Shown here: positions 44,005-52,165 of the stretch, in pieces | Numbering within the stretch: position 1 is the stretch's first letter | How the letters are laid out: each line of letters opens with the position of its first letter | The notes under the pieces: model-generated | Databases searched by the model: none | The model's input: only the letters and a program-made list of their open reading frames with translations | What the model was told of the DNA's origin: nothing | Made by a program: the position numbers and the translations under genes | Origin: Pseudarthrobacter oxydans | Lineage (GTDB): Bacteria > Actinomycetota > Actinomycetes > Actinomycetales > Micrococcaceae | Assembly (NCBI RefSeq): GCF_030812335.1 | Contig: NZ_JAUSSN010000004.1 | Location: 1-64,000 of the forward strand | Direction: 5' to 3' | DNA length: 64,000 bases

Positions 44005-45219
44005 ATGACAAGCACGGAACACCCATCCCCCAGCAGCCTCCGGGGTCCGAATGCCCCGGAATGGGCGCGGCTGGAGGACCTGTCCAGGACCCGACTGCTG
44101 GACACACCTTCCGAGGAGCGCTTCGACCGGATCACGCGTTTGGCGCAGAGCCTGTTCGGGGTCAGCGCAGCCAGTGTGTCGCTGATCGCCGAGAACCGCC
44201 AGTACCTGAAATCGTTCGTAGGTCCGCTGTCCCGCGAATCGGACCGGGGCGATGCGTTCTGCGCCGAGACGCTCAAGTCCTCCGAAACCTTGATCGTGGA
44301 GAACGCCCTCACCGACGATCGTTTCCGCCACAACCCGCTCGTGACGGGCGACCCCCACATTCAGTTCTATGCCGGCCACCCCCTCACCGGACCGGGCGGC
44401 ACCCATGTCGGAACGTTCTGCATCATCGACCAGTCGCCCCGGTCCTTCGGTGCGGAACAGCGAAAGATCCTGGAGGATCTGACCCAGATCATCCAGCGTG
44501 AGATGAACCTGTCCTGGGACATCGACCAAGGAGCCCGCACCCAACGTGCGCTCCTGCCGGTCACTCCCCCGGCCCCTGCCGGCTACTCGCTGGGAGTCTG
44601 CTTCTATCCCGCCTTCGGGCTCAGCGGGGACTTCTACGACCTCGGCACCACAGGGGCCGGGCACTTCCGCATGACCGTCGGCGATGCCATGGGCAAGGGC
44701 GTCGGTCCCGGGCTCGTGGCGGGGGCGGCGCGTTCCGCCTTCGCCGACGCCGGCTGGGACGCGGACCCGTCCCGCCTCCTCCGGGACGCAGCGGACCGCC
44801 TGGACGGGACCCTGGCCCGCGCCGGGTCCTTCGCTTCGGTCTTCCACGCCGTGATCGACCCGGCAACCGGCACCGGCCTCTATGCTGACGCCGGACAGGG
44901 CTTGACCCACATCCTCCGGGCCGACAGCACCGTCGAGCGCCTGCCGCCCACAGGCCCGCCGTTGGGGCTGGTCCCCGGCGCGACCTGGACGCAGCGCCCC
45001 TTCGCGCTCTCCCCCGGAGACGCGGTCCTGATTCCGACCGACGGCCTCCTCGACCTCCACGGCGGCGACCTCGGCCTGCTCTCCACCGCCATGACCGATT
45101 GCCGGACGCAGGACAACGCGGACACGGCCGTCAAGAGATTGTGCGACCGGCGGGGAAAATCCGTGGTCCTCGACGACATCACGGCCGTCCTCTTCCAGCG
45201 CGGGCCGGGCCGAAGCTAA
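44005..45219 (+). CDS. GAF-domain SpoIIE-type serine phosphatase
   Basis: 404 residues, soluble. The GAF domain (about 20-165) contains ARLEDLSRTRLLDTPSEERFDRITRLA. The PP2C/SpoIIE domain (about 190-400) has the metal-binding LSGDFYDL and GDAMGKGVGPGLVA, then DAGQGLTHIL and PTDGLLDLHGG. Such phosphatases dephosphorylate STAS anti-anti-sigma proteins. A STAS gene and a matching kinase gene lie 3.5 kb downstream on the same strand. ggaggaag precedes the ATG. Confidence 0.92.
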   Translation: MTSTEHPSPSSLRGPNAPEWARLEDLSRTRLLDTPSEERFDRITRLAQSLFGVSAASVSLIAENRQYLKSFVGPLSRESDRGDAFCAETLKSSETLIVENALTDDRFRHNPLVTGDPHIQFYAGHPLTGPGGTHVGTFCIIDQSPRSFGAEQRKILEDLTQIIQREMNLSWDIDQGARTQRALLPVTPPAPAGYSLGVCFYPAFGLSGDFYDLGTTGAGHFRMTVGDAMGKGVGPGLVAGAARSAFADAGWDADPSRLLRDAADRLDGTLARAGSFASVFHAVIDPATGTGLYADAGQGLTHILRADSTVERLPPTGPPLGLVPGATWTQRPFALSPGDAVLIPTDGLLDLHGGDLGLLSTAMTDCRTQDNADTAVKRLCDRRGKSVVLDDITAVLFQRGPGRS

Positions 45220-45312
45220 GCTCCGACGCCGCTCCGGGCCCGCTCCGGCACCGCTCCGGGGCGGGCCGGCGTTCCGCCGGAAATTTCACCCCAAAAAGCG
45301 TCGGTAGGATTC

Positions 45313-46698
45313 ATGGGGACAAGCTGGGGAAGTCTAGGCATAGGGGAGTCAGTGGCGGCAACGGCAACACGGGAAGCCGTCGTGACGGGTGTGGACGAGC
45401 AACCATGGCTGCGGCAGCAGTTGCCGTTCACCTGGACGGGTGTGGACGAACTGTCGCCGCTGCGGAAACAGCTGCCGTTCGTGCTGTTCTTTATCGTCGC
45501 CGCGGCCATGAGCAGTTCGATCGCGACCCTGACGGTGAGCGACTGGACGGCACTGGCAGCCGGGGCCGTGCTGACGGCGGCAGCCACCGGTCTGGCCGCC
45601 CTGGCGACGAAACCGGAACTGGCCCGCTTCGCCATCATCGTGCCTTGCCTGGATTTCCTGGCGGCCGGAGCACTGCGGCACGGCACGGGGGAAAGCCACT
45701 CCATCTATGCCTCGATTGTCCTGCTGCCGGTCCTCTGGCTCGCCGCCATGCAGGGCCGCCGCCACGTGGCCTACGCGGCTGTGGGCGCAACGGTTGCCAT
45801 CATGGTCCCGTTCGCGCTCGGGTCGAGCATCGACGCGAACCCCAACGAGCTCTTCCGCGGGCTGTACAGCACGATGATCTTCGTCCTAGGAGCCCTCGTG
45901 GTCAACGAACTGGCGCGGCGGGCACGACGCCGTCTCCACACAGCGCGCGAGCAGGCGGCTGCGGCCACTGCCGAACTCAGCCGGGCCGCCCAGATCCAGC
46001 GCTTCCTGCTGCCGAAGAACGCCGCTCCCCTCCCCGGCTACCAGACCGCCGGGGCCTGCATCCCCTCCACCGCCGTGGGAGGGGACTTCTTTGACTGGTA
46101 CCTCATCGAAGAGGGGCTAGGGTTCACCCTCGGCGACGTCATGGGCAAGGGAGCCGGCGCCGGCATGATCGCCGCCACTACGCGGGCTGTCATCCGCAGC
46201 GCGCGAAACAGCGGCGACCCCGCGACCGCCCTGACCCTCACGCAGGACTGCCTCGCCACCGACCTCAGCCAGGCGGGCTCCTTCGCGACCCTCTTCCACG
46301 CCCGGCTCCGGGCCTCCGACGGGCGGATCCTGTTCGCGGACGCCGGCCACGGCCTGACCCTGGTGGTCCGGGCCGCGGGCACCTGGGAGAGGCTCGCCTC
46401 GGACAACTTCCCGGTCGGTCTGCTCCCCGACACCCGCTGGGAATCCCTGGAAACACGGCTGGGGCCCGGGGACATGATCGTCAGCTTCAGCGACGGCGTC
46501 CTGGACCTCTATGACGGAACACTCGCCGCGGTTGACGAGATCGGCAGACTCGCCGTCGGCGTGGGGTCCGCGGAAGAGCTCGTCGACGCCGTGCGCCGGC
46601 GGGCACAGGGCACCGCCAACCCCGATGACGTCACCATCCTGGCCGTCCGGCGGGATGACCTGAGCGGCCTGGGCCCTCACGCCGGAGAGACCCGATGA
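45313..46698 (+). CDS. Membrane-bound SpoIIE-type serine phosphatase
   Basis: 461 residues. After an N-terminal segment with a 17-residue tandem duplication come six to seven membrane helices (about 55-205), then a short helical linker (RRRLHTAREQAAAATAELSRAAQIQRFLLP) and a SpoIIE phosphatase domain (about 240-455) with VGGDFFDW, LGDVMGKGAGAGM, FADAGHGLTLVV and SFSDGVLDLYDG. The linker resembles those that carry signals in this family. The stop overlaps the glycosyltransferase start (ATGA), so the two are coupled. Likely sensor of a membrane or extracellular cue that acts on the STAS protein. Confidence 0.92.
   Translation: MGTSWGSLGIGESVAATATREAVVTGVDEQPWLRQQLPFTWTGVDELSPLRKQLPFVLFFIVAAAMSSSIATLTVSDWTALAAGAVLTAAATGLAALATKPELARFAIIVPCLDFLAAGALRHGTGESHSIYASIVLLPVLWLAAMQGRRHVAYAAVGATVAIMVPFALGSSIDANPNELFRGLYSTMIFVLGALVVNELARRARRRLHTAREQAAAATAELSRAAQIQRFLLPKNAAPLPGYQTAGACIPSTAVGGDFFDWYLIEEGLGFTLGDVMGKGAGAGMIAATTRAVIRSARNSGDPATALTLTQDCLATDLSQAGSFATLFHARLRASDGRILFADAGHGLTLVVRAAGTWERLASDNFPVGLLPDTRWESLETRLGPGDMIVSFSDGVLDLYDGTLAAVDEIGRLAVGVGSAEELVDAVRRRAQGTANPDDVTILAVRRDDLSGLGPHAGETR
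45384..45485 (+). repeat. 51-bp in-frame tandem duplication in the phosphatase gene
   Basis: 45384-45434 and 45435-45485 are diverged copies (both open gacgggtgtggacga and end with ttgccgttc/ctgccgttc). They encode TGVDEQPWLRQQLPF and TGVDELSPLRKQLPF just before the first membrane helix. Confidence 0.9.
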
Positions 46699-48692
46699 GG
46701 CCCTTCTGGGTCCGGCTCGTCGTCGTCCTGACGGTACTGACCGGGGTCAACTACATTGCCTGGCGCTGGCTGGCGTCGCTCAATTGGGACGCCTGGTGGA
46801 TCGCCGTGCCGCTCGTCATCGCCGAGACTTACAGCCTGATCGACGTGATGCTCTTCGGGATGACGGTCTGGCGGCTCAAAACCCGCACACCGCCGTCGCC
46901 GGCGCCCGCGGACGCCACCGTTGACGTGTTCATTACGACGTACAACGAGCCGCTGGACCTGGTGATGACGACGGCGCTGGCCGCCCAGAAAATCCGGCAT
47001 CCGCACAGCACCTGGATCCTGGACGACGGTGACCGGCCCAAACTCCGGGACCTGGCTGCCGCGCACGGGCTGGGATACGTCACGCGGAGCGCGGCGTGGA
47101 GCGGGATGCCCCGGCACGCCAAGGCCGGGAACCTGAACAACGCGCTGATGATGACCTCAGGCGAGTTCCTGCTCATCCTGGATGCGGACCAGATCCCCGA
47201 GCCGGACATTCTGGACAACACGCTGGGCTACTTCAACAACCGCAGGGTCGCCCTCGTCCAGACGCCCCAGTACTTCAGCAACGTCCCGGCCGACGACCCG
47301 CTGGGCAGCCAGGCGCCGTTGTTCTACGGCCCCATCCAGCAGGGCAAGGACGGCTGGAATGCCGCCTTCTTCTGCGGCTCCAACGCGGTCCTCCGGCGCG
47401 AGGCCCTGATGCAGCTGGGGCTGGTCGGCTACGTCAAGGAAACGGAAAAGAGCATCCGGCGCGCCCTCAGCGCCTCCCAGGCCGCGATCCGCAAGGCCCG
47501 CAAGGCGGCCTCCAGCGAATCGCCGCTGCTGCAGCAGACCCTCGACGAGGTCGAAGCGGCCACCCAGGAGGCCCGCCGCCGGCTCGACGCCGGGGAGTCG
47601 CTCAGCGAGATCACCTACCGGGCGCGGCGGCGGGTGGACCAGGCGGTCCAGTCGCTGGTGCTGGCCGATGTGTCCGCCCTGCAGGCCGACCTGGAGGAGA
47701 TCGCCGCGATGTCCCCGGTGGAGGTCGGCGACGCGGGCGTGCCGGTGGTGACCGACGACGCGGTGCAGCGGATGGCGGCCCGTGACTGGTCCCCGCTCGG
47801 GGCGATCGAGTCCGTCCAGGCGGTGCTGGACGCGTTGTCGGTGGAACGGACCGACGAGGCCCAGCCGGTCATGCCGCTGGCCACCATCTCCGTGACAGAG
47901 GACATGGCCACGGCCATGCGGCTCCACGCCATGGGCTGGCAGAGCGTGTACCACCACGAGGTCCTGGCGTACGGGCTGGCACCGGAGGACATCGGCACCA
48001 TGCTGACCCAGCGGCTCCGCTGGGCCCAGGGCACCATGCAGGTCTTCCTGCGGGAAAACCCGCTGGTCCAGCGCGGGCTCAAGTTCGGCCAGCGGCTGAT
48101 GTACTTCGCGACCATGTGGACCTACCTCAGCGGCTTCGCCGCCGTCGTCTACTTCGCCGCACCGATCGTCTATCTGCTCTTCGGCATCCTGCCCGTGACC
48201 AGCCTCAGCACGGACTTCTTCGTCAGATTCATCCCGTTCATGGTGGTGAACCAGCTCCTGTTTGCCATTGCCGGGAAGGGCATCCCCACCTGGCGCGGGC
48301 AGCAGTACAGCCTCGCTTTGTTCCCGACCTGGATCAAGGCGTGCACGACGGCGGCCCGGAACGTCTGGCTGGGACGGCCCCTCGGCTTCGCCGTCACCCC
48401 CAAGGACCGGCAGTCCGGCGGGCCGCGGTGGAGCCTGATCCGCCCCCAGATCGCCGTGTCCGTCCTGCTGGTCGTTGCGGCGGTGGTCGGGATTGGCCGG
48501 CTCGTTGCCGGAATGTCCGAACCGGTCGGCACCCTCGTCAACGTACTCTGGGTGGTGTTTGACCTCGTCGTCATGAGCATCCTGGTCCGGGCCGTCCTGT
48601 ACCGCGGGTACCCGGCCGGCGATTCCGACGATGAGACCGACAGCAGCACCGAGTCATCCAAAGAAAGGGCCATCCGTGGACCTGAGCTATGA
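46695..48692 (+). CDS. BcsA-like processive family 2 glycosyltransferase with catalytic-domain insertion
   Basis: 665 residues. Two N-terminal helices (about 5-25, 35-57) precede a GT-A domain with DVFITTYNE (77-85), DDGDRP (110-115), DAD (163-165), FFCGSNAVLRR (225-235), TED (401-403) and QRLRW (439-443), the full set of cellulose/hyaluronan synthase motifs. C-terminal helices start near 455. Between the acceptor-site motif and TED, where BcsA has 15-20 residues, there are about 150 extra, mostly helical Ala/Arg/Glu-rich (about 247-397). There is no PilZ domain. It overlaps the phosphatase upstream (ATGA) and the STAS gene downstream (17 bases). Product: an unidentified beta-linked polysaccharide exported through the membrane. 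Confidence 0.9.
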   Translation: MRPFWVRLVVVLTVLTGVNYIAWRWLASLNWDAWWIAVPLVIAETYSLIDVMLFGMTVWRLKTRTPPSPAPADATVDVFITTYNEPLDLVMTTALAAQKIRHPHSTWILDDGDRPKLRDLAAAHGLGYVTRSAAWSGMPRHAKAGNLNNALMMTSGEFLLILDADQIPEPDILDNTLGYFNNRRVALVQTPQYFSNVPADDPLGSQAPLFYGPIQQGKDGWNAAFFCGSNAVLRREALMQLGLVGYVKETEKSIRRALSASQAAIRKARKAASSESPLLQQTLDEVEAATQEARRRLDAGESLSEITYRARRRVDQAVQSLVLADVSALQADLEEIAAMSPVEVGDAGVPVVTDDAVQRMAARDWSPLGAIESVQAVLDALSVERTDEAQPVMPLATISVTEDMATAMRLHAMGWQSVYHHEVLAYGLAPEDIGTMLTQRLRWAQGTMQVFLRENPLVQRGLKFGQRLMYFATMWTYLSGFAAVVYFAAPIVYLLFGILPVTSLSTDFFVRFIPFMVVNQLLFAIAGKGIPTWRGQQYSLALFPTWIKACTTAARNVWLGRPLGFAVTPKDRQSGGPRWSLIRPQIAVSVLLVVAAVVGIGRLVAGMSEPVGTLVNVLWVVFDLVVMSILVRAVLYRGYPAGDSDDETDSSTESSKERAIRGPEL

Positions 48693-49008
48693 AGTAAAAG
48701 ACAGCTACGCCGAGATAACTGCCGCCGGCCGGCTCAACATGGTCTCTGCGCCGAAACTGCGGGAACTGGTGGCGGAAGTTGTCGCGGCGGGTACTTCCCG
48801 GATCGTGATCAACCTGCAGGAGACGGCCTTCATGGATTCCTCCGGCCTCGGAGCCCTCATCGGATGCCTCAAGGCCGCACGGCAGGCTGGCGGCGACCTC
48901 CGGATCGCGGCAGTCCAGCCCCAGGTCCAGATGGTCCTGGGCCTGACCAGCATGGACAAGGTCCTCACGTCTTACCCCTCCGCGGCCGAAGCTTTCGGCG
49001 ATGACTGA
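48676..49008 (+). CDS. STAS-domain anti-anti-sigma factor (SpoIIAA/RsbV-like)
   Basis: 110 residues. SRIVINLQETAFMDSSGLGALIG (41-63) is the anti-anti-sigma signature; the DSSG motif (54-57) carries the phosphorylatable serine. The proposed start is GTG at 48676 with aaaggg seven bases before it, inside the end of the glycosyltransferase gene. It overlaps the ATPase gene by eight bases. Known role of the family: the unphosphorylated form binds the kinase/anti-sigma protein and frees its other partner. Confidence 0.93.
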   Translation: MDLSYEVKDSYAEITAAGRLNMVSAPKLRELVAEVVAAGTSRIVINLQETAFMDSSGLGALIGCLKAARQAGGDLRIAAVQPQVQMVLGLTSMDKVLTSYPSAAEAFGDD

Positions 49009-49429
49009 CGTCCTCGCCCGGCGGACGCTGCGCCAGGCGGCACTTCCGGAAGCCATCGAGGCCGTGCACACCGAGCTGGACGGGCTGTGGGAGGATGCTT
49101 CATTCGTCCCGGACATGGACCGGATGACCTTCGCCACGGCCGTCATCGAAGCTGCCAGCAACGTGGTGCAGCATGCGGTTCCCGAATCCACGGCCCCGGT
49201 GGAACTCGGGGTCGACATCAGCGTCACGCCCCTCAGGCTGGAGGCCCGGGTCAGCGCCTTCGGCGCAGCGCACCCCGACCCCATCGACACCGACCCTGCC
49301 ATGCCCGACGGCGAGGCGGAATCCGGGCGCGGCCTCGCCCTGATCCGCGCCCTTGTCACCACCGTGACGTTCAAGCGCCAGGACGGGACGAACACCTGGA
49401 TCCTGTCAAAATCCCCGCTGAATGACTGA
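49001..49429 (+). CDS. RsbW/SpoIIAB-like anti-sigma ATPase (serine kinase)
   Basis: 142 residues, GHKL fold: N-box AVIEAASNVVQHA (E50, N54, H58), then a late glycine box ESGRGLALIRALV. This is the kinase that phosphorylates STAS proteins and traps a sigma factor or other target. It overlaps the STAS gene by eight bases. No sigma factor gene is found in the window, so its other partner is elsewhere, or is the glycosyltransferase itself (inference). Confidence 0.92.
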   Translation: MTDVLARRTLRQAALPEAIEAVHTELDGLWEDASFVPDMDRMTFATAVIEAASNVVQHAVPESTAPVELGVDISVTPLRLEARVSAFGAAHPDPIDTDPAMPDGEAESGRGLALIRALVTTVTFKRQDGTNTWILSKSPLND

Positions 49430-49581
49430 GTGGAATCCTTGGGCAATCCTCGGGATGTCCTGCGTCTATTTGGTCACCTGAGCGGGCTGGCTGTAGCGGA
49501 CACTGGAAGTTACGGCTTCCGGTGGGGGCCGGGTACCGTCACGACGCCCCGCCGCACCCGGCGCCCGGCCGAGGAGTTCCA

Positions 49582-50802
49582 TTGAAGCCGATAAGAAGCC
49601 TGGCGTGCGTTCTCGCCCTCGTGGTCCTGAGCCTGACGCTGGCAGCGGTCCCCGCGCAGGCCGCGGCCGCGAACATCAGCCTCAGCCCGGTCCAGGGCCC
49701 GGCGGGAACCACGGTCACCGTCACGGGCACCGGGTTCCCGAAAAAGAGCTCCGGAACCCTTAGCGCCGGCACCAGCTCCGCCGCGTTCAAGGTGAGCGCC
49801 TCCGGATACTTCACGGCCGCCGTCGTCATCCCGCAGACGACCCAGCCGATCCTGGACGTCCAGGCCACCGCCGGGACCGTCAGCGCCTCGGCGGCCTTCA
49901 CCGTCGTCGCCGCCCCTGCACCGCCGCCGCCTCCGGCCATCAGCAGCTCGCCGCTGCGCTTCGGTATCGGCACCCCGGGCGGACCGCTGGCCGCGGCGGA
50001 ACTGGACCAGGCCGCGTCCCTCGCCGGCGAGGTGCCGTCCGTCATTCTGTCCTACAAGGACTTCAACCAGGCCCCGCCCGTTCCGGAGCTCGACGCCGCC
50101 CGCAGCCGCGGCGCCACGACCCTGCTGACGTGGGAGCCCTGGGCCTGGGGCGGCGGAACCGAGCAGCCCGCCTATGCCCTTGACCGCATCACCGCCGGAG
50201 ACTTCGACCCCTACCTGCGGCAGTGGGGCGCGGCCCTGGCGTCTTGGGGGCACCCGGTGATGCTGCGCTTCGGCCATGAGATGAACGGCAACTGGTACCC
50301 GTGGGCCGAGGGCATCAACGGCAACGGACCCGGTGACTACGCCGCGGCCTGGCGGCACGTGCACGACGTCGTCGCCGGCACGGGCGCCACCAACATCACC
50401 TGGGTCTGGAACCCTAACGTCCCCTACTGGGGGTCAACACCGCTCGACGGCCTGTATCCCGGCACCGGGTACGTGGATGCGGTGGCGCTCGACGGGTACA
50501 ACTGGGGCACGTCTGCGGCCTGGAGCAGCTGGATCGCCCCGGCGGAGCTCTTCGGCCCGGGGCTCGCCGAGCTAAGGCGGCTCGCCCCCGGCAAGCAGGT
50601 GCTCATCGCGGAAACGTCGTCCGCGGAACAAGGCGGATCCAAAGCGGACTGGAACACGGCGCTGATCAGCTACCTCGCGGCGCAGGCCGACGTCACGGCC
50701 GTGGTCTGGTTCCACTTCAACAAGGAAACCGACTGGCGCATCAACAGCAGCACTTCCTCCGCCACGGCGCTGGCGGCTGCCCTGGCCGCGCGCCCCCAGT
50801 AG
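49582..50802 (+). CDS. Secreted GH26-type glycanase
   Basis: 406 residues from a TTG at 49582 (gaggag eight bases upstream). Signal peptide (1-27, ending AQA-AA), a beta-sandwich IPT/TIG-like domain (about 30-108), a Pro-rich linker (APPPPPP), then a (beta/alpha)8 domain with acid/base E233 in RFGHEMNGNWYPW and nucleophile E344 in LIAETSSAE, the GH26 pattern. GH26 enzymes cut beta-mannan or mixed beta-glucans. It lies 150 bases after the partner-switching operon; a secreted glycanase beside a synthase gene is the usual pairing for trimming or releasing the polymer. Confidence 0.9.
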   Translation: MKPIRSLACVLALVVLSLTLAAVPAQAAAANISLSPVQGPAGTTVTVTGTGFPKKSSGTLSAGTSSAAFKVSASGYFTAAVVIPQTTQPILDVQATAGTVSASAAFTVVAAPAPPPPPAISSSPLRFGIGTPGGPLAAAELDQAASLAGEVPSVILSYKDFNQAPPVPELDAARSRGATTLLTWEPWAWGGGTEQPAYALDRITAGDFDPYLRQWGAALASWGHPVMLRFGHEMNGNWYPWAEGINGNGPGDYAAAWRHVHDVVAGTGATNITWVWNPNVPYWGSTPLDGLYPGTGYVDAVALDGYNWGTSAAWSSWIAPAELFGPGLAELRRLAPGKQVLIAETSSAEQGGSKADWNTALISYLAAQADVTAVVWFHFNKETDWRINSSTSSATALAAALAARPQ

Positions 50803-50865: not shown

Positions 50866-51545
50866 ATGACATCCAATAGAGGGCTCGCAATCTTCAGGTT
50901 CTGGTTTGCCCTTCTGGGATTCCTGGCCGTGGTATTCCAGCTGACCCACCTGCTCGCGAATGTACCCGGAGCCACTGCCGGGAATTACTTCAGCTACTTC
51001 ACCATCGAATCAAACATCATCGCGTTCGTGACTCTGGCAGTCGGCGGCCTCTACGCATGGAAAGGCGAAAGCCCGCGCTGGCTGGAGCTCCTGCGCGGGG
51101 CCGCAACCATCTACATGACCATCACCGGGATCGTCTACAACCTCCTGCTGAGCAACATCGACGTCAATACCCCGATCCCGTGGATCAACGTCGTCCTGCA
51201 CTTCACGATCCCCACGATCATGGTCATCGACTGGCTGGTTGACCTGCCCAAAAGCCGGATTCCGGTCCGCACCTCGCTGATCTGGCTCGCGTTCCCCCTC
51301 CTGTACCTGGTCTACAGCCTGGTCCGCGGTCCCATCGCCAGCTGGTATCCGTACCCGTTCCTCGACCCCGGATCAGCGGTTACGGAACCGTGGCCGTCAT
51401 GTCGCTCGCGATCGCTGCCGGGGCCTTCGTTTTCGCCCTCATTGCGGCGCTCTCCACGCGGCTGCAGATCGCGCCGACGTCCGACCGCCCCGCCGGCGGG
51501 GCCGCGGCGGCAGCCCTGGAGCCTGAAGGCAGCACGCTCGGCTGA
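50866..51545 (+). pseudogene. Pr6Pr-type membrane protein gene with a frameshift
   Basis: Codons 1-168 give a polytopic protein (about five helices) ending PYPFLDP, typical of the Pr6Pr family. At 51370-51371 the frame is lost: one base appears missing (ccccgg). Shifting frame restores ISGYGTVAVMSLAIAAGAFVFALIAALS, the expected last helix, and a TGA at 51543-51545, for about 226 residues, the normal length. The uncorrected frame runs on as arginine/proline-rich nonsense through the tRNA. It is either a sequencing error or a recent inactivating deletion. TAGGAT (50854-50859) six bases before the ATG suggests leaderless transcription. Confidence 0.85.
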
Positions 51546-51635
51546 GCCCGGCTGTGAGCGGGCAAAACGAACACACTGGCCGCTGACGCTCGTCGCGGCG
51601 GGACGCGTTTTCCCCAGGACAAAAAAGGGCAAAGA

Positions 51636-51671
51636 AAAAGCCTCCGGAACCTGTTGGTTCCGGAGGCTTTT
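51636..51671. terminator. Bidirectional terminator between the Pr6Pr gene and tRNA-Tyr
   Basis: Arms aaaagcctccggaacc and ggttccggaggctttt pair perfectly (51636-51651 with 51656-51671) around tgtt, with A and T runs on each side, so it can stop transcription from both strands. Confidence 0.9.
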
Positions 51672-51678
51672 CCAAGGG

Positions 51679-51760
51679 TGGCAGATGAGGGATTCGAACC
51701 CCCGTAGGCGTTGCCAGCTGATTTACAGTCAGCCCCCTTTGGCCGCTCGGGTAATCTGCC
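51679..51760 (-). tRNA. tRNA-Tyr (anticodon GTA)
   Basis: 82-nt minus-strand tRNA with acceptor GGCAGAT/ATCTGCC, anticodon arm GCTGA-CTGTAAA-TCAGC, a long variable arm as in bacterial tRNA-Tyr, and T arm with GGTTCGAATCC. CCA not encoded. A terminator follows directly. Confidence 0.95.
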
Positions 51761-51910
51761 GAACTTCAAAAGAAGATCACTCGCGGCCTCCATCGTCAGA
51801 ACGCCTGTTTCCAGTCCGTTCCGCTTCCAGTAACCGCGGGCAAGACAACTTTACAGAACTTCTGCCGAAGAATCGAATCGGCGCTTTGAGGCCCGAAAAA
51901 GCCCGGAAAA

Positions 51911-52165
51911 TCAGGCATCTCCGAGGATGCGGCCGGCGAGTTTGGACTCAAGCCTCGCTGCCTGCTCCTCCGTGATCTGGTTCAGCTGGACGGCACGGGC
52001 CAGATCAGCATGGACGCCGTCCAGCCGGGACGGGGCATCCGCGGCCGGGCTGAAGATGATCGAGGCAGCCAATGTCGCGGCCGCCACCGAGGTCGCGGCG
52101 GTGGCGATACCGCCGGCGGCGGCTGCCGTGGAGCGGACGACGTACCGGACGGCTTTGTTCTGCAT
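51911..52165 (-). CDS. Small membrane protein of unknown function
   Basis: 84 residues (MQNKAVRYVVRSTAAAAGG...). A hydrophobic Ala-rich helix (about 12-40) precedes a polar C-terminus with a helix (LARAVQLNQITEEQAARLESKLAG). aaagg lies about nine bases before the ATG at 52165. Upstream in-frame starts lie in a low-support region. Family not recognised. Confidence 0.65.
   Translation of the reverse strand: MQNKAVRYVVRSTAAAAGGIATAATSVAAATLAASIIFSPAADAPSRLDGVHADLARAVQLNQITEEQAARLESKLAGRILGDA

Follow-up and report, generated by a model that had tools for sequence, protein, structure and literature searches.

The first 64,000 nucleotides of contig NZ_JAUSSN010000004.1 of the soil bacterium Pseudarthrobacter oxydans (the window) hold a locus in which genes for two SpoIIE-type phosphatases, a BcsA-like processive glycosyltransferase of family 2 (GT2), a STAS protein and an RsbW-like ATPase follow one another, with a secreted glycanase of family GH26 downstream. 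The interpretation that we prefer, and to which we assign a probability of roughly one in two, is that the synthase itself is the direct client of this partner switch, likely through the dephosphorylated STAS protein. More tentatively, and at somewhat less than even odds, we suggest that in actinobacteria the switch works free of both sigma factor and cyclic di-GMP (c-di-GMP), the STAS protein docking on a dedicated helical insertion next to the active site of the synthase and toggling it directly. Such a switch would likely start and stop the synthesis of a surface polymer, perhaps a beta-glucan. That the synthase is the client had been proposed in a sequence-only reading of the window; conservation and the elimination of sigma factors and GGDEF proteins, both described below, strengthen the proposal, although direct control is still something that we infer from the genes.

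Of 80 named loci, the best 80 of 541 relatives, 75 have GT2, STAS and ATPase genes in this order without interruption. Within the 75, taking gene starts as inferred from models, the STAS and ATPase genes overlap by 8 nucleotides in 74 and by 4 in one, the GT2 and STAS genes overlap in 71, and a same-strand phosphatase gene precedes GT2 in 72. Among the non-contiguous loci, L175 is cut by a contig end, L190-L192 have the cassette nearby in another orientation, and L181 has no STAS or ATPase gene within the fetched stretch. A survey of 197 genomes of the family (thresholds of E 1e-60 for GT2 and E 1e-4 for the ATPase; the named and unnamed locus sets overlap and are hence not independent) found GT2 in 36 and the ATPase in 41, with all 36 contained in the 41, so that the ATPase accompanies 36/36 GT2-positive and 5/161 GT2-negative genomes (Fisher p 2e-34, uncorrected for relatedness). 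The ATPase gene lies just downstream on the same strand for 34 of the 39 near-full-length GT2s in the family, with a STAS gene between the two in 34 of 34. In the exceptions the cassette is nearby in another orientation (G161:C56, G171) or on another contig (G116, G130), or the GT2 is an additional copy from which the QxxRW-bearing stretch has been lost (G006:C22). A class-wide scan of 394 genomes recovered GT2 in 23, across 8 of 137 genera; two of these genomes belong to the window's genus and 21 to other families. The three genes are contiguous in 19/21 loci of other actinobacterial families, the exceptions being a locus that ends at a contig edge (L217) and one with GT2 pieces only (L241). 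The order first noticed in this window thus spans several actinobacterial families and is not unique to this genome, and the conserved overlaps make the arrangement more than chance. The outer genes that the sequence-only reading included, those of the GAF phosphatase and the GH26 enzyme, stand outside this constant unit: the input domain of the upstream phosphatase varies among loci (REC, GAF or a membrane N-domain), and GH26 is found in 14/80 named loci (fetched stretch of up to 8 kb, some contigs being shorter).

To our knowledge, partner switches have two kinds of output, sigma factors and diguanylate cyclases; in other settings it is mostly transcription that phosphatases, STAS proteins and ATPases of this sort control. 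We followed both through 54 set-bearing genomes, 36 from the family and 18 from other families (G303, G534 and G578 were left out). Matches to SigB/F/G-type sigma factors split cleanly in the family, with 55/197 genomes at E <=2e-54 and the rest at >=3e-40 or without any match. On this basis such a sigma factor is present in 20 of the 36 GT2-bearing family genomes and missing in 16, and present in 16 of the 18 other-family genomes and missing in G363 and G396; in all, it was not found in 18/54. GGDEF (E 1e-8) was not found in 16/54, and neither of the two in 10/54 (G019, G047, G066, G071, G089, G141, G161, G178, G188 and G363). The GT2-STAS-ATPase order is kept in all ten, the GT2 of G178 being split by an in-frame stop. 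The set and the sigma factor also dissociate in both directions within one genus, G123 and G164 having the set without the sigma factor, and G009 and G086 the sigma factor without the set.

Textbook control of bacterial cellulose-type synthases operates by c-di-GMP binding to a C-terminal domain. No PilZ domain was found in a Pfam scan of the locus proteins, in agreement with the sequence-only reading. This absence alone does not rule out c-di-GMP, since parts of PMC5567048 describe Sinorhizobium meliloti BgsA as binding c-di-GMP without PilZ, by a C-terminal domain. The tail beyond the last predicted hydrophobic segment measures 0-50 residues in 129 GT2s, with a median of 17 (zero marks a contig end), and because it reaches 50 residues at most it is predicted to leave no room for a domain of either the PilZ or the BgsA type. 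Given the short tail and the genomes from which the sigma factor or GGDEF is absent, the synthase is the simplest remaining client, by an argument of elimination in which housekeeping or extracytoplasmic function sigma factors or other enzymes could also take that place.

Within the 4.63-Mb genome of the window the switch parts form a closed circuit. The only SpoIIE matches over the cut-off are the two phosphatases of the locus (a third match, at 21.7 bits, falls below it); the locus STAS is the sole STAS in a short frame, five other matches lying in frames of 579-684 amino acids; and the locus ATPase is the sole short HATPase_c_2 protein, with nine other matches in frames of 319-725 amino acids.

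Motif counts across the collected proteins take in near-duplicate loci and leave out the divergent STAS proteins of second GT2 copies. In the GT2s, LDDG and TED are found in 129/129, QxxRW in 127/129 and the gating-loop motif FxVTxK in 128/129. DSSGLG is present in 130/130 STAS proteins; the ATPases have the N-box ExxxN in 131/131 and the G2 pattern in 130/131; and the metal motifs of the phosphatases fit simple patterns in 23 to 37 of 37. Of the features of an RsbUVW-type switch, the SpoIIE/PP2C phosphatase, the conserved motif of the putative STAS phospho-serine and the Glu and Asn of the HATPase N-box are all present here; the window lacks the adenine-contacting Asp of the G1 box, to which we return below.

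The synthase also carries an insertion of about 150 residues that is missing from the aligned cellulose synthase chain. The span between its anchors (residues 240-408) is 166-177 residues in 49/51 aligned GT2s and 126 in two paralogues that are second GT2 copies (L115, L116). Within it the segment RxxSPLxA is conserved (S 96%, P 92%, L 90% and A 94%). Modelled alone with AlphaFold, the insertion forms long helices, with a mean predicted local distance difference test score (pLDDT) of 75 and a predicted template modelling score (pTM) of 0.63; it has no PDB match at E 1e-3.

These features could be assembled as follows. In the off state the ATPase would phosphorylate the STAS protein, hold it, or both. 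On a signal sensed by the GAF or the membrane phosphatase, the STAS serine would be dephosphorylated, and the free STAS protein would bind the synthase from the cytosolic side; the probable docking site is the helical insertion next to the TED motif of the active site. Once bound, it would allow the gating loop and the active site to operate and the polymer to be extruded, and the secreted GH26 enzyme might then trim it. The STAS switch would in this way take over a role that in BcsA and BgsA belongs to a C-terminal domain binding c-di-GMP, a domain that the GT2 is missing.

Which switch protein touches the synthase is a separate question. By the canonical logic of RsbW, dephosphorylated STAS draws the ATPase off its client, and the ATPase rather than the STAS protein might hold the synthase until it is pulled away, as in SigB control; the ATPase's presence in every GT2-bearing family genome and its unbroken N-box would fit such a role. 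We nevertheless regard this as unlikely and the STAS protein as the likely contact, because the latter is the better conserved, is kept by second GT2 copies, and corresponds to the component used by known enzyme-client switches. Over 68 loci the mean pairwise distance is 0.42 for STAS and 0.60 for the ATPase, which is also less conserved than the GT2 core. G063, G137 and G152, which belong to the same genus as the window, have the full set plus a second GT2 copy (L116, L115 and L261, respectively), directly followed by a divergent STAS protein and then a GH26-like gene; the 13-15 kb fetched around these copies gave no match to the ATPase or to SpoIIE. The divergent STAS proteins score 21-25 bits with our own model, and 42 and 38 bits with Pfam STAS in the two that were scanned; DSSG reads GASG in them. 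The L261 GT2 match shows the same gap as the short-insertion copies L115 and L116, and its insertion is probably short as well. Since a STAS protein stays with the second GT2 without an adjacent kinase or phosphatase, these copies favour STAS as the putative synthase partner, although the cassette elsewhere in the genome could serve them. Finally, in the parts of PMC5085249 and PMC8457831 that bear on enzyme clients, the switches act via a STAS-type protein.

A relative from another phylum, on plasmid pn1 of the cyanobacterium Nostoc sp. UHCC 0926 (L251), with a GT2 of 44-46% identity, bears on the link in general. Its neighbours are a GH26-like protein (E 2e-31 with our own model; 19.6 bits with Pfam, just under the cut-off), DUF3131 proteins, a STAS protein, a SpoIIE domain, a REC protein and an RsbW-like ATPase, and the cluster supports a functional link of such synthases with the switch parts. 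Between the REC and SpoIIE pieces lies an opposite-strand open reading frame of 486 amino acids without a Pfam match.

Several observations weigh against the synthase, and in particular its insertion, as the target of the switch. The Nostoc GT2, clustered with similar parts, is without the insertion, a warning that docking may also occur at other sites. Modelling of the full-length GT2 gave a poor result (pLDDT 59, pTM 0.46). A raw sliding-window coevolution signal with STAS reached 0.46 at GT2 residues 251-350 and shrank against variability-matched control columns: for the insertion, shared evolution with STAS was 0.44 against 0.34 in the matched control, which matched or beat it in 32/200 draws, and with the ATPase 0.40 against 0.37, matched or beaten in 78/200. 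In L093, L101, L113 and L181 a GT2 with the full-length insertion lies apart from the cassette, against any simple rule tying insertion to cassette; the genomes of the first three have the cassette elsewhere. Conversely, the ATPase occurs without GT2 in five family genomes, in three of which, those of genus g4, it is accompanied by a phosphatase and a STAS protein. Two further points belong here, namely that the SigB/F/G-type sigma factor is found more often where GT2 is present (20/36 genomes) than in the rest (35/161; p 1e-4) and that the window ATPase has Ala at the position of RsbW's adenine-contacting G1-box Asp.

The first of these last two points lends some weight to ordinary sigma control, in which the ATPase would be an anti-sigma factor and the synthase merely co-located or regulated. 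The earlier statement that there is no sigma gene holds for the window, in which no sigma-70 region 2 match was found at E 1e-3, but not for the genome, which encodes a SigB/F/G-type sigma factor at C11:68888-69553 (210 bits, under a cut-off of 234 bits). Matches to HATPase_c_2 and STAS are lacking in its vicinity, which leaves this sigma factor as a candidate client. The enrichment of the sigma factor in GT2 genomes may reflect relatedness or genome size. The 18 set-bearing genomes from which such a sigma factor is missing, among them G164 with an ATPase 71% identical, the genomes of that same genus with the sigma factor and no set, and the lack of a sigma gene in the window make sigma control improbable in our view. 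An ATPase that serves only a sigma factor encoded elsewhere, the outcome that the sequence-only reading had named as fatal to its proposal, is likewise made unlikely by these 18, with other sigma types possible. A second SigB/F/G-type sigma gene in the window's genome (G000:C1:610150-610747) has its pieces in different frames and is apparently broken.

The Ala in the G1 box raises the question of whether the ATPase is still a kinase. In 131 ATPases the position is occupied 72 times by Ala, 31 times by Glu, 26 times by Asp and once each by Gly and His, and Asp is kept in 17/18 of the ATPases counted from other families; the window protein, aligned to RsbW in a weak match (E 0.06), likewise reads Ala. 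Because of this replacement, kinase activity may be reduced or lost in the window ATPase. Taken further, ATPases of the window type might no longer bind ATP at all and be pure binders of STAS or synthase, with another kinase, or competition alone, doing the rest. The retention of the N-box, the G2 pattern, the STAS serine motif and the phosphatase metal motifs would be hard to explain without phosphorylation, and we think this reading quite improbable. Among the relatives L080-L240 the G1 residue is Ala, Glu or Asp while N-box and G2 are intact.

That the STAS protein controls a diguanylate cyclase whose c-di-GMP then activates the synthase, as parts of PMC8457831, PMC8546604 and PMC5567048 describe for the S. 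meliloti Bgr switch, its cyclase BgrR and the mixed-linkage glucan made by BgsA, would suit the eight GGDEF matches over the cut-off in this genome and is very improbable in view of the set-bearing genomes without a GGDEF match and of a GT2 tail too short for a receptor domain.

As to the polymer, mannanase is a usual activity of GH26 enzymes. We do not prefer it here, as Endoglucanase H, which we take to be the lichenase CtLic26A, is far closer among solved structures (E 4e-45, where the best mannanase reaches 5.5e-9), and both of the Glu residues that are presumably catalytic align with it. GH26 is also near GT2 in 10/19 other-family loci when weak matches are counted, and an OpgC acyltransferase domain is present in some of these other-family GH26-like proteins. 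A beta-glucan, perhaps mixed-linkage or related, is the likely polymer, if the predicted specificity of the glycanase is a guide. A GH26-like part joined with an OpgC domain lies beside GT2 at L093:5320-8118 and L230:8174-11059, and OpgC lies beside GT2 in L227 and L232.

The features of the locus are collected in Table 1. Coordinates and Pfam matches bear out the gene content reported earlier, including the upstream GAF phosphatase and the downstream secreted GH26 gene, as well as overlaps of 4 nucleotides between the membrane SpoIIE and GT2 genes, 17 between GT2 and STAS, and 8 between STAS and ATPase. The GAF-SpoIIE phosphatase contains the motifs SGDFYD, GDAMGKG and DDIT. The nearest named relatives of the GT2 are from Arthrobacter, at 93-95% identity. 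The STAS gene starts with GTG at 48676, with AAAGAAAGG upstream; the GH26 gene has a TTG start behind AGGAG, 152 nucleotides downstream of the ATPase gene.

Table 1 Features of the partner-switch and synthase locus, with the STAS genes of second GT2 copies (positions are those of the window unless a locus is named)
Feature	Position	Strand	Basis
GAF-SpoIIE (PP2C-type) serine phosphatase, predicted sensor input 1	44005-45219	+	Pfam SpoIIE 95.8 bits, GAF 54 bits
Membrane-anchored SpoIIE-type phosphatase, predicted sensor input 2	45313-46698	+	Pfam SpoIIE 116.8 bits; membrane segments judged from sequence
BcsA-like processive GT2 synthase, no PilZ	46695-48692	+	Pfam Cellulose_synt/GT2; TIGR03030 359 bits
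GT2 helical insertion (~residues 245-395), directly before TED motif	47427-47879	+	Alignment with cellulose synthase; AlphaFold helices
FAVTPK, BcsA-type gating-loop motif of GT2, residues 565-570	48387-48404	+	Motif match
STAS (anti-sigma-antagonist-like) protein, DSSGLG phospho-acceptor motif	48676-49008	+	Pfam STAS 64.4 bits
RsbW-like HATPase, predicted STAS kinase/binder	49001-49429	+	Pfam HATPase_c_2 51.1 bits
Secreted GH26 glycanase with TIG domain, lichenase-like	49582-50802	+	Pfam GH26 41.9 bits, TIG 21.6 bits; signal peptide judged from sequence
Divergent STAS genes after second GT2s	L115:6184-6618, L116:5800-6249, L261:5543-6034		

A scan for promoters and terminators placed all its hits on the minus strand: one promoter-like site, where 0.3 would be expected, and two terminator-like sites, where 2.6 would be. 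Directly after the GH26 gene, at 50866-51975 of the window, lies a gene for a Pr6Pr-family membrane protein. Elsewhere, L108, L109 and L110, all of one genus, have a phosphatase-STAS-ATPase cassette without GT2 (the REC-type phosphatase was confirmed in L108), and clpP- and clpX-like genes lie near it in L108 and L110. Among 530 plasmid records that hold a GT2 relative, there is no single place at which 80% of the query is covered. In a fusion (Rosetta-stone) test, 7998 candidates with a length range of 504-1605 residues were scored; two apparent fusions of STAS with a polysaccharide enzyme, OpgC or GT2 (P0121, P0122), have scrambled middles, look like frameshift artefacts of the gene order and were not counted. 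A full-text literature search returned no paper describing this operon, as judged by title and the start of the abstract and with most subscription journals outside its coverage.

Partner switching in the control of a beta-glucan is already known from S. meliloti, the nearest precedent, where, according to parts of PMC8457831 and PMC8546604, the BgrSTUWV switch acts on the cyclase BgrR and so governs BgsA. The two systems are alike in that phosphatase, STAS and kinase genes are linked to the gene of a BcsA-like glucan synthase, a link that here comes from the genes alone, and that a STAS-bearing switch governs, or here would govern, a synthase of likely the same polymer class. They differ in what stands between: in the S. 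meliloti system, as those sources present it, a cyclase and c-di-GMP connect switch and synthase, whereas here some genomes are GGDEF-free, the GT2 tail lacks the length for a receptor domain, and the synthase gene itself sits between the phosphatase and STAS genes. What appears to be new is partner switching of glucan synthesis without a second messenger and without a sigma factor, by way of a synthase family that has no c-di-GMP domain and is genetically linked to a partner switch, in ten genomes in which neither known output was found. If the synthase is the client, a membrane polymerase would be a direct target of partner switching, and this would offer a way to tune how much beta-glucan Gram-positive bacteria produce.

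The Bacillus RsbU/RsbV/RsbW-SigB system combines a SpoIIE phosphatase, a STAS protein with the DSSG serine and a HATPase with an ExxxN box. All three recur here, the differences being that no sigma gene lies in the operon, that SigB/F/G is absent in 18/54 genomes, and that the G1 Asp of the window ATPase is replaced by Ala. With BcsA cellulose synthase the GT2 shares the D,D,D,QxxRW core and the FxVTxK gating loop; it differs in lacking PilZ, in the insertion of about 150 residues before TED and in a TIGR03030 (CelA equivalog) score of 359 bits, under the 699-bit cut-off. Direct, phosphorylation-dependent binding of an enzyme by a STAS-type protein has precedent in Pseudomonas aeruginosa, in HsbA-HsbD (parts of PMC5085249) and SiaC-SiaD (parts of PMC8457831), but the clients of HsbR-HsbA-HsbD and SiaABCD described there are diguanylate cyclases and not a polymerase. 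(1,3;1,4)-beta-glucan synthesis independent of c-di-GMP is described in part of PMC10374906, in which the R. ilealis RiGT2 was active without the messenger and needed a PilZ-like domain. Also comparable are SypE-SypA of Vibrio fischeri and HmpUVW of Nostoc, partner-switch proteins tied to biofilm and hormogonium polysaccharide, respectively, for which parts of PMC8256260 give the STAS targets of SypA and HmpV as unknown; direct control of a synthase by STAS, if true, would bear on what these two proteins bind.

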